64,000 nt of DNA from Prochlorococcus sp. AG-402-I23. Lineage in GTDB: Bacteria; Cyanobacteriota; Cyanobacteriia; PCC-6307; Cyanobiaceae. The DNA lies in assembly GCA_003216915.1 (NCBI GenBank), contig QCIB01000002.1:1-64000 (forward strand), in the 5' to 3' direction. The position numbers and the translations under genes are program-made. Below are positions 5,024 to 8,464 of this stretch, piece after piece. The notes beneath the pieces were generated by a model. It made no database searches. It was not told the DNA's origin and saw only the letters and a list, made by a program, of their open reading frames with translations. The stretch's first letter is position 1, and every line of letters begins with the position of its first letter.

Positions 5024-5194
5024 CTACTCTTCTTCTTCTTCTTCAATAGGATAAACAAATCCTTGAGCTTTCCCAGTTAAAACTGATTTACCTAAAGATA
5101 TAGCTTTTTGAGCTGCTATTACTGCTTTTCCTTTCCAAACAGCGTGCCTTTGGTTCCTTTTGCTCTTTGATTTTTTCTTCTTTGGTACAGCCAT
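5024..5194 (-). CDS. rpmF: 50S ribosomal protein L32
   Basis: Complement from ATG at 5194 to TAG at 5024: 56 residues beginning [18 protein letters not shown], which is the L32 signature, with a [17 protein letters not shown] middle. The C-terminus is a run of glutamates encoded by GAA repeats. It is a component of the large ribosomal subunit. Its 3' end lies 3 bases from the stop of ycf20, so the genes converge. Upstream is the divergent ftsH-like gene, with a palindrome in the shared spacer. Confidence 0.93.
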
Positions 5195-5303: not shown

Positions 5304-5325
5304 TATTAATCACTTATAAAGATTA

Positions 5326-7080
5326 GTGTTTAGATCAAAATTCTCATATTCAGATTCTAAATCAAGTTATTCGGATCTTCTAGAAGATATAGAGACGGGG
5401 AAAATAGAATCAATATTTTTCTATCCAAGGCAGAGAGAAATTGATGTTCTGTATAAAAATGGCGATAAATTTAAAATACCTATCCTTTACAACGATCAAT
5501 TAATCCTTGAAAAGGCTAGTGAAAATAAGGTAGATCTAACTATTAACAATAGTAGAAAAGAAGCCTCAGCTGCTAATTCATTTGCTTCAATAAGTCTTTT
5601 CCTGATTTTCATTTTAGCTATAGTCTTAATCTTGAGGAGTACATCAAAATTGGCTTCCAGAGCTTTTGGTTTTACCAAAAATCAAGCTAAATTTGTAACT
5701 ATTGATGATGTAGAAACGAGATTCGATGATGTAGCTGGCGTCCCTGAAGCCGCTGAGGAATTAAAAGAGGTAATAACATTTTTGAAGGAACCCAAGAAAT
5801 TTGAAAATCTTGGAGCAAAAGTTCCTAAGGGAGTTCTTCTAATAGGCCCACCAGGAACAGGTAAAACATTATTAGCTAAAGCAATTGCTGGTGAATCAGG
5901 AGTACCTTTTCTCTCAATATCGGCATCAGAGTTTGTAGAACTTTTTGTTGGTGTTGGAGCAAGCCGAGTTCGTGATCTGTTCTCTAAGGCTAAGGAAAAA
6001 TCTCCTTGTATAATTTTCATTGATGAAATTGATTCCATTGGTAGACAAAGAGGGTCTGGGATCGGAGGTGGAAATGATGAAAGAGAACAAACCCTTAATC
6101 AGCTTCTAACTGAATTAGATGGTTTTGCTGATAATTCTGGGATTATTGTTTTAGCAGCAACAAATAGACCAGATATTTTGGATGCAGCATTATTAAGACC
6201 AGGTAGATTTGATAGAAAAATTGAAGTAATGCTTCCAGATTTAGATGGAAGAAAAAAAATTCTTTCAGTTCACTCACTTTCCAAACCACTTTCAAGCGAA
6301 GTTGACTTAGGATATTGGGCTTCTAGAACAGTTGGATTTTCGGGAGCAGATCTTGCAAACTTGATGAACGAGAGTGCTATTCACTGTGCAAGAAACGAAT
6401 CTAAATTAATCAGTGATCTTCATATAGAAAATGCTCTTGATAAAATTACCATTGGCCTGAGAAGCTCATTAATAACTTCTCCTAATATGAAAAAAATTAT
6501 TGCTTATAACGAAGTAGGTAGAGCAATTGTATCTGCTGTGAGAAATGGAATTGAATCAGTTGATAAAATTACGATTTTACCTAGATCTGGATCTATAGGA
6601 GGATATACAAAAATATGCCCTGACGAAGATGTAATTTCTAGTGGATTAATTTCAAAAAAATTATTATTTTCGAAAATTGAAATTGCTCTAGCTGGAAGAG
6701 CAGCAGAAACGATAGTTTTTGGGAAAGGTGAAATTACACAATGCTCCATAAATGATATCTCTTATGCGACAAGTATCGTAAGGGAAATGGTTACAAAATA
6801 TGGATTTTCAATTATTGGTCCAATTTCAATGGATTCTGATAATAATGAAATGTATTTAGGAGATGGATTATTTAGAAGAAAGCCTCTCATAGCAGAAAAT
6901 ACCAGTTCTAGAATAGATAATGAAATCATAAATATTTCTAAAATTTCATTAAATAATTCAATAAAAATATTGAAAAAAAATAGAGTCTTACTAGATAAAT
7001 TAGTTGATATACTTTTAAATCAAGAAACTATAGATAATAAAGTTTTTAAATTAACAACTTCTAAATTGTTGAAAGTTTGA
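5326..7080 (+). CDS. FtsH-like AAA protein lacking the zinc-protease motif and first membrane helix
   Basis: 584 residues, GTG start; an in-frame TAA three codons upstream rules out a longer N-terminus. FtsH layout otherwise: extracytoplasmic-type domain (about 12-75), one membrane helix (about 88-104), AAA domain with Walker A GPPGTGKT (174-181), Walker B IIFIDEID (229-236) and a second-region-of-homology RPGRFDR (291-297). The M41 zinc motif HExxH is replaced by NEVGR (395-399), losing both histidine ligands, though a later NDISYAT retains the usual aspartate region. The first membrane helix of normal FtsH is missing. ATP-dependent unfolding or partnering with active FtsH is plausible; proteolysis is not expected. 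This resembles the inactive FtsHi proteins of plastids. Confidence 0.88.
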
Positions 7081-7111: not shown

Positions 7112-7864
7112 TTGATAATTAAAAACAATACTACGAAGTTATTAGTTACACTTTTATTTTTACTTATTCTTCCATTTGTACAAAAACAATGGTTTAATTT
7201 GTATTCACTTAATATTAATGATATTTCCTTTTATTCAATCCTTTACTATTTGAGCGGAGCAATATGTCCATCTTTGGTGTATGTAAACTCTTTAAAAAAC
7301 TATACATACTATAATTTTACTAAGGATAAAATCCATAGTATAAAAATAATTAAAGGAAAAAGATTATTATTCTTAGTAACAATAAATTTAATATTTCTCT
7401 CTTACTTTATAGCTGATTATATATATATAAATTTTGATCTTATATTTAATTTATTTCTTGAAGGAATTAATGTACCAAGACCGGATTTTCCACAGTTAAG
7501 TTTTTTCATATTTTTAATTTCTATCCTATTAATTTTTAAGAAATCTAGGTTTCTGTTAAAAAAAATAATATTGGTAAATTTTATTTTGATTTCTCTCTAT
7601 CTTTGGCATCTTCAAATTAATAATATTAGTGTTGATGATCAGTTTCATATTTATAGATATTTTGGTTTAAATGACTTAAATTTAATTAATCTTTTTATCC
7701 TAGTCGCCATAGAAATTTCTTTTTATACGTGGTGCTTCTTATCATATAAAAATAATTTGAGCGATTGGATCGTGCCCAAACCTCAAAAAGGGGATGTTAT
7801 CCCCTTTTTGAATATATTTGTTTTTTATTTTATTATTATTATTTACTACTCAATACTAACTTAA
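7112..7864 (+). CDS. Conserved-looking polytopic membrane protein, function unknown
   Basis: 250 residues from a TTG start 31 bases after the ftsH-like stop. About six hydrophobic helices are visible (near 10-22, 40-55, 85-105, 128-143, 150-165, 190-207, 228-247), with short Lys/Asn-rich connections. A PRPDFPQ motif follows the third helix and PKPQKGD precedes the last. I do not recognise the family. Its position suggests co-transcription with the ftsH-like gene and therefore a possible functional link. A 12-bp hairpin (7784-7810) lies inside the coding sequence near the 3' end. Confidence 0.6.
   Translation: MIIKNNTTKLLVTLLFLLILPFVQKQWFNLYSLNINDISFYSILYYLSGAICPSLVYVNSLKNYTYYNFTKDKIHSIKIIKGKRLLFLVTINLIFLSYFIADYIYINFDLIFNLFLEGINVPRPDFPQLSFFIFLISILLIFKKSRFLLKKIILVNFILISLYLWHLQINNISVDDQFHIYRYFGLNDLNLINLFILVAIEISFYTWCFLSYKNNLSDWIVPKPQKGDVIPFLNIFVFYFIIIIYYSILT
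7784..7810. repeat. 12-bp perfect inverted repeat, 3-base loop, inside a coding region
   Basis: CAAAAAGGGGAT (7784-7795), loop GTT, then ATCCCCTTTTTG (7799-7810). The stem has four consecutive G-C pairs, rare in this AT-rich DNA, and the right arm contains a T run as in terminators. It falls in the segment coding PKPQKGDVIPF of the membrane protein, so it is translated as well. Confidence 0.6.
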
Positions 7865-7879
7865 ATGTTTCTAATTCTT

Positions 7880-8464
7880 CTATAGCGAAGAAAAATATTC
7901 CTTACTACCTTTGGGGTCCTCTAACATTGTTTTCTCCCCGGGGGTCCAGTTTGCTGGACATACTTCATCGGGGTTTGCCGCAACGTATTGATAACCTTGA
8001 AGAATCCTTAGCGTTTCATCAACATTTCTACCTACAGGAGCCTTGTTAACAGTCGTATGCATAACTACTCCTTCGGGATTGATAAGAAATAAACCTCTAT
8101 CAGCCTCCCCATCATCATTTAGAACATTGTACGCCTGGCAAATTTCTCTTTTTAAGTCAGAAACTAAAGGATAGTTAATATCACCTATACCACCTTCATT
8201 TCTTGGGGTTTGTATCCAAGCCAAATGACAGTGTTTGCTATCAACTGATACCCCAAGTATTTCCGTATTAAGTGCCGAGAAATCTTGATATCTATCACTA
8301 AATGCAGTGATTTCAGTTGGACAAACAAATGTAAAATCTAGTGGGTAAAAGAATAGAACAACCCATTTACCTCTTAGACCTGAAAGTGTAATCTCCTTAA
8401 ACTCTTGATCATATACTGCTGTAGCACTAAAGTCTGGTGCTTCTTGGCCAACTCTTAAGCTCAT
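7880..8464 (-). CDS. Typical 2-Cys peroxiredoxin (thioredoxin peroxidase)
   Basis: 194 residues. The peroxidatic cysteine is in FVCPTE (C48) and the resolving cysteine in EVCPANW (C169), the typical 2-Cys pattern. GGIG (91-94) and a C-terminal YF (190-191) correspond to the GGLG/YF features linked with sensitivity to over-oxidation. The enzyme reduces H2O2 and organic peroxides using thioredoxin in the cytoplasm. It converges with the membrane-protein gene upstream and has its own promoter region at 8465-8563, which holds a GGTC/GACC inverted repeat. Confidence 0.93.

Follow-up and report, generated by a model that had tools for sequence, protein, structure and literature searches.

Is an FtsH homologue without a protease site a gene in decay, or is it a protein maintained for something other than cutting? 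The question is raised by an open reading frame in the first 64,000 nucleotides of contig QCIB01000002.1 of Prochlorococcus sp. AG-402-I23, the stretch referred to here as the window. An original prediction, made from the sequence alone, had described the product as a selected FtsH paralogue that lacks both the HExxH motif and the first membrane helix.

Identity and domain structure

The frame at 5326 to 7080 on the plus strand starts with GTG and encodes an FtsH homologue of 584 amino acids. The whole protein matches the NCBIfam model TIGR01241 (FtsH) with 647.6 bits, above the cutoff of 600, and Pfam assigns AAA, AAA lid, and Peptidase M41 domains as well as a weak FtsH_ext domain. The features of the locus are as follows.

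5326..7080, plus strand: pseudo-protease FtsH (picocyanobacterial FtsH 4, putatively FtsH1-type), from TIGR01241, with the name from a primer match
5317..5319, plus strand: in-frame TAA, three codons 5' of the GTG, from the sequence
5365..5541, plus strand: FtsH_ext (PF06480), residues 14 to 72, near the N-terminus, weak at 25.6 bits against a cutoff of 25.5
5581..5634, plus strand: sole transmembrane helix, residues 86 to 103, equivalent of FtsH TM2, from hydropathy (helix 78 to 111 in the structure model)
5833..6228, plus strand: AAA ATPase domain (PF00004), residues 170 to 301, from Pfam
5845..5868, plus strand: Walker A, GPPGTGKT, from sequence and alignment
5944..5958, plus strand: pore loop, FVGVG, from sequence and alignment
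6016..6030, plus strand: Walker B, FIDEI, from sequence and alignment
6160..6216, plus strand: second region of homology (SRH), both arginines present, from sequence and alignment
6475..7047, plus strand: Peptidase M41 (PF01434), residues 384 to 574, zinc site lost, from Pfam
6508..6522, plus strand: NEVGR replacing HExGH, with R399 (6520-6522) at the second zinc histidine, from alignment
6754..6756, plus strand: D477, third zinc-ligand position, retained, from alignment
5024..5194, minus strand: rpmF (ribosomal protein L32, named by eye), divergent neighbor, from gene-order comparison

The genome carries three further FtsH genes, each with HExGH, whose M41 domains score 230.6 to 256.1 bits, compared to 153.9 bits for the window protein. 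HExGH was kept in 41 of the 42 paralogue loci scanned, and the 42nd (L213) is the NEVGR-type gene of another genome. The predicted structure (mean pLDDT, 75.8; pTM, 0.63) comprises an N-domain, one membrane helix, the AAA domain, and a helical M41 region, and its best PDB matches were FtsH chains together with chains of the Ycf2-FtsHi motor (ranks 5 and 10). As a prediction, the model supports the FtsH fold only.

Published primers for "FtsH 4" of MED4 and MIT9313 matched L199 (G015) and L155 (G131) with no mismatch. By this exact match, the window gene is the picocyanobacterial FtsH 4, the motif of which reads as broken in MED4 and as intact (HEIGH) in MIT9313. FtsH 4 has been equated with Synechocystis FtsH1, an assignment called "less obvious" than the others (PMC6300248). 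In our own tree, built without slr1390, the window protein grouped with FtsHs from other cyanobacteria and away from sequences of the FtsH2, FtsH3, and FtsH4 types.

Loss of the zinc site

Codons 395 to 399 (6508 to 6522) read N-E-V-G-R at the place of the FtsH H-E-x-G-H. Of 49 aligned FtsH proteins, at least 90% carry His at each of positions 395 and 399, and HEAGH lies opposite NEVGR in the best-matching FtsH chains of the PDB; the replacement described earlier was thus borne out by both comparisons. D477 occupies what we take to be the third zinc-ligand position. The window protein is therefore an FtsH homologue but, by its sequence, not an active FtsH protease, and with its ATPase motifs kept and its zinc motif lost, it qualifies as an FtsHi in the functional sense. 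Walker A, Walker B, the pore loop, and both SRH arginines were kept in 118/118 sequences of the family (a count that includes repeats, and in which L363 ends before M41), in agreement with the intact AAA domain (Walker A, Walker B, SRH) claimed for the window protein.

Distribution among relatives

The orthologue was present in 52 of 61 genomes of the same genus, with 9 missing versus 11.0 expected from incompleteness. Copies with an intact HExxH, which would speak against the original prediction, were looked for among these close relatives and found in 0 of the 54 same-genus sequences: 53 read YNEVGR and one YNEGGR (L201).

Of 212 family sequences collected, 193 were left once repeats were removed by genome title, and 192 have the M41 region; L363, without it, is in neither of the following counts. 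HExxH was broken in 104 sequences and intact in 88, the latter including two that are probably other paralogues (L362 from G115 and L364 from G119) and otherwise 86 sound sequences. The broken sequences came from seven genus-level groups (54 from the genus of the window, 29 from g56, 10 from g11, 3 from g17, 2 each from g39 and g4, and 1 from g27) and from 3 named Prochlorococcus loci; the DNA of the named sequences L002 and L003 is identical to that of G025 and G043, which they repeat. No genus-level group mixed broken and intact motifs. A strain-specific error is rejected, as the motif is broken in 104 sequences from seven groups. One locus, L177/L395 (G070) with the motif YNEAGK, is in our assumption very probably the SS120 "FtsHi" gene.

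At the threshold used, 12 of 41 g56 genomes and 4 of 14 g11 genomes had no match (versus 7.7 and 2.75 expected, respectively), an excess that makes occasional gene loss possible. The near-complete genomes G296 and G369 gave no match for this FtsH type at the thresholds used, and G086 (99% complete) and G133 (94%) yielded only three FtsH genes each, none of this type. Complete loss of the gene is possible in these four genomes.

FtsH relatives were also seen in viral contigs of IMG/VR, where 112 of 124 pattern stretches encode them. The 80 that were kept (L221 to L300) share only 41 to 50% identity and were ruled out as the NEVGR-type gene.

Origin of the loss and fate of the catalytic positions

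In a tree of 88 sequences from which the motif columns had been removed, the 57 broken sequences made up one side of a branch with an SH-aLRT support of 99. A first tree of 126 sequences with a wider outgroup had likewise placed the broken sequences in one clade of 24 (support, 89) among intact ones. The tree of three neighboring genes gave one change of state, at a branch support of 14, and the AAA-only tree gave 4 changes, of which strong branches force only 1. Because the broken sequences form one clade, a single founding loss of the protease site is likeliest, an origin that is favored but, given many long branches, not proven. Several independent losses, suspected from the varied motifs, are disfavored, since one change of state suffices on the full-length and neighbor-gene trees. 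The nesting of the clade among protease-intact cyanobacterial orthologues argues for a separate origin of plant FtsHi, in trees built without plant sequences.

The 104 broken sequences carry R (68 sequences), K (35), or I (1, L403) in place of the second histidine. The position is thus basic in 103 of 104, or in 101 of 102 distinct sequences with two repeats set aside. At the third-ligand position, D was found in 86, Q in 6, E in 5, N in 3, H in 3, and Y in 1. The minimum number of changes on the tree was 6 for the first His, 7 for the Glu, 12 for the third ligand, and 8 for the second His; 7 of these 8 remain basic, and one leaves K/R. Three of the catalytic positions (first His, Glu, and third ligand) therefore drift across the broken clade, whereas the second position stays basic. 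The preservation of charge in 7 of 8 changes is only suggestive because K-R exchange is mutationally easy. Position 399 was compared with the other M41 columns in which half or more of the 57 broken sequences are basic; it was the sole one basic in 0 of 31 intact and at least 90% of the broken sequences, a uniqueness for which we set aside its being a trivial K/R site. In some sequences (L127, L159, and L177), D477 is lost yet K is kept, which is evidence against a simple K-D bridge. Since all broken sequences share only one change, the loss of the second His, this loss may have been the first step, preceding the changes at the other catalytic positions.

Tentatively, and with some doubt on our part, the zinc site may have been converted rather than merely lost. 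A founding His-to-Lys/Arg change in the ancestor of seven Prochlorococcus-like groups would have introduced a positive charge, held thereafter, that might substitute electrostatically for the metal and keep the M41 fold locked. On this reading, the protein would be a motor subunit specialized for a non-cutting role, and the counterpart of an essential FtsH1/FtsH3 complex would be a half-active ring. If so, very abundant phototrophs would carry, as a stable natural state, the equivalent of the type-B mutants made by engineering.

N-terminus and membrane helix

Two N-terminal membrane helices are typical of FtsH. By this two-helix criterion of the family, the window protein has one helix, the only hydrophobic segment in its hydropathy profile being residues 86 to 103, and the in-frame TAA at 5317 to 5319 lies before the GTG; both agree with the described exclusion of the N-terminal helix. 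Upstream of the remaining helix, a 19-residue stretch with a hydropathy of at least 1.6 was found in 0 of 104 broken sequences. The nearest start codon 2 to 14 codons before the conserved SYS was GTG in 67 and ATG in 36 of the 103 scorable broken sequences. A NEVGR-type motif with a short N-terminus had been expected across strains and is conserved in the genus, but the position of the upstream stop varies, the open frame having 615 codons in L093 and L103, 594 in L201, and 588 in L114.

Protease-intact orthologues are similar in this respect. Among the 85 scored, 12 have a stop at most 20 codons from SYS, too close to accommodate a helix, and 24 have a stop within 40 codons, with a hydropathy there of at most 1.06. 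A hydropathy of 1.6 was reached in 13 of the 88 intact sequences, in every case at a distance of over 200 residues upstream of Walker A; the doubtful L364 is among the 13, and several others, judged by eye, overlap rpmF on the opposite strand. Because protease-intact orthologues also lack the first helix, its loss is older than that of the protease site and separate from it. A tie between the two losses is thus rejected, and the missing helix cannot be counted, as was first proposed, as a feature of the protease-dead copy. A cytoplasmic location of the AAA domain is suggested by basic residues that follow the remaining helix.

In the FtsH1-like proteins of other cyanobacteria (L303 to L327), a weak first helix was seen by eye, often ending in A-x-A like a cleavable signal peptide.

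Selection on the window FtsH

We compared omega (MG+F3X4) in nine genomes of the same genus for the N-domain, AAA, and M41 regions. The values were 0.056, 0.030, and 0.081 for the window FtsH; 0.011, 0.009, and 0.019 for FtsH2; 0.006, 0.001, and 0.008 for FtsH3; and 0.004, 0.002, and 0.003 for the active paralogue FtsH4. A counting method gave 0.062, 0.037, and 0.111 for the window FtsH versus 0.016, 0.013, and 0.031 for FtsH2. The omega of the window FtsH is thus about three to five times that of the active type-B FtsH2, a rough comparison weakened by the difference in mean dS between the loci (about 0.3 and 0.8, respectively). Mean identity to MIT9313 was 0.71 (AAA) and 0.41 (M41) for broken sequences, compared to 0.83 and 0.69 for intact ones. 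Selection is therefore strong and far from neutral, yet somewhat relaxed, mostly in M41. The low omega expected for the AAA domain was found, but it exceeds that of the active paralogues. Constraint persists even in the dead M41 domain, presumably because it forms part of the ring.

Slow decay following loss of function would fit the faster evolution relative to the paralogues, the low M41 identity to MIT9313 beside that of intact orthologues, and the few near-complete genomes without the gene. However, the frame is open across seven genus-level groups, every ATPase motif is retained, and omega is only 0.03 to 0.08. Decay is already largely refuted by these observations, and we consider it very improbable. 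Together with the presence of the gene in most genomes of the genus, they support the selected pseudo-protease of the original prediction.

Proposed function and alternatives

With its zinc site lost, ATPase motifs kept, coding sequence under purifying selection, and first helix absent, the protein is probably a protease-dead type-B subunit that serves as an ATP-driven unfoldase partner of the active type-A FtsH3 in a mixed ring. This putative FtsH1-type subunit would join FtsH3 in a mixed hexamer, where its AAA positions and pore loops would help to draw substrates from within the membrane or from its surface, with the M41 domain of the subunit as a structural part of the ring. Cutting would be left to the FtsH3 sites alone. 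The hetero-oligomer is suggested by the reported homology to Synechocystis FtsH1 and by published type-B FtsH mutants, and the partner, membrane, substrates, and ring activity are inferred. According to a review, the partner of Synechocystis FtsH1 is FtsH3, and their complex, located mainly in the plasma membrane, is essential. In mixed rings, the protease activity of type-B subunits is reported in review to be dispensable for photosystem II (PSII) repair, whereas their ATPase is needed. As PSII repair is supported without type-B proteolysis, a dead type-B subunit can work.

Speaking against the mixed ring are a constraint looser than in the active paralogues, as their lower omega indicates, the near-complete genomes without a match (G296 and G369), and a possible scarcity of the protein. 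In MED4, isoforms 1, 2, and 3 are described as having balanced shares of the transcripts, with FtsH 4 unmentioned in the accessible text (PMC6300248), and an ocean-protein figure has columns for FtsH1 to FtsH3 only, so FtsH 4 may be scarce. The looser constraint would also fit a brake, in which incorporation lowers or retunes proteolysis by FtsH2/3 or FtsH1/3 rings without being required for them, as would a protease-dead subunit alongside three active-type paralogues in the same genome. The conservation of all ATPase motifs suggests a working engine instead, and we regard the brake as rather improbable. The same motifs would equally serve a homohexamer acting as a pure unfoldase or translocase without protease, like the plastid FtsHi motor. 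The N-terminus and membrane anchor, which are unlike those of the other three paralogues, and the Ycf2-FtsHi chains among the structural matches point in that direction. However, these matches reflect the shared fold, with ordinary FtsH chains ranking equally high, the plastid motor is itself hetero-oligomeric, and Synechocystis FtsH1 reportedly forms hetero-oligomers with FtsH3. A homohexamer is thus unlikely, though less so than a brake. Least credible of all is an enzyme that still cuts by another set of metal ligands or another active site. Purifying selection on M41 (omega, 0.081) and the retention of the third-position Asp by 86 of 104 sequences could be read in its favor, but both histidines are replaced in the window protein, the Glu or Asp is also lost elsewhere in the clade, and no conserved replacement ligand set was seen. 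Several Prochlorococcus-like lineages therefore probably keep a protease-dead FtsH motor as the non-cutting partner in a mixed ring.

Relation to known FtsH proteins

FtsH1 of Synechocystis sp. PCC 6803 (slr1390), a type-B FtsH, is the homologue according to a published picocyanobacterial tree. It is treated in the literature seen as part of an active protease, whereas the window protein has no zinc site. The window protein itself has no first helix or signal.

Plant FtsHi1, -2, -4, and -5 and the Ycf2-FtsHi motor, described as non-cutting subunits of a hetero-complex, share with the window protein the FtsH fold, the ATPase, and a degraded HExxH. Unlike plant FtsHi, the window protein sits inside one cyanobacterial orthologue group. 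We know of no Ycf2 or FtsH12 partner for it. The window clade keeps a basic residue at the second His. Arabidopsis FtsH2 with a mutated protease site, also type-B, is reported in reviews to support its complex without proteolysis (Zhang et al. 2010). In contrast to that engineered thylakoid mutant, the window protein represents the natural state of a whole clade.

One FtsHi has been counted in Prochlorococcus marinus SS120 (Mishra et al. 2019, PMC6460958), and a later review does likewise. The former covers one strain, and its accessible text does not say which paralogue this is, how widely it occurs, how it arose, or how constrained it is. The words HExxH, zinc, inactive, and proteolytic were not found in the accessible text of PMC6300248, which uses Zn2+. 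The SS120 FtsHi is thus already published, but in the literature covered, which excludes most subscription papers, nothing was found on how widely the site has been lost, on a single origin of that loss, or on the conservation of a basic residue. Prochlorococcus FtsH4 appears in a 2024 paper as the Synechocystis FtsH1 homologue with the function "cell viability" (PMC11262661), a reading to be corrected in that MED4 FtsH 4, by its predicted product, cannot be a zinc protease. Whether all FtsH sites of a mixed ring must cut has so far been asked with engineered mutants. With many descendants of a probable single event, the clade offers a natural series in which a type-B subunit has retained its engine but not its cutter, alongside relatives such as MIT9313 in which the cutter is kept.

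Gene order at the locus

The rpmF gene lies on the opposite strand in 103 of 104 broken and 86 of 88 intact loci. It is upstream in 103 broken and 80 intact loci, a rule that counts from the open-frame start labeling 6 intact loci as downstream. A gene for a 108-amino-acid membrane protein was found in 101 broken and 79 intact loci. Gene order thus agrees between broken and intact loci, and the rpmF neighbor supports orthology.

On the downstream side, a peroxiredoxin gene (named by eye; 7880 to 8464, opposite strand) was found in 0 of 88 intact and 97 of 104 broken loci, a contrast that may reflect only the short flanks compared. Directly downstream of the window FtsH, at 7112 to 7864, lies a gene for a multi-span membrane protein of 250 amino acids, which a similarity comparison found in 0 of 88 intact loci and in 54 of 104 broken ones.
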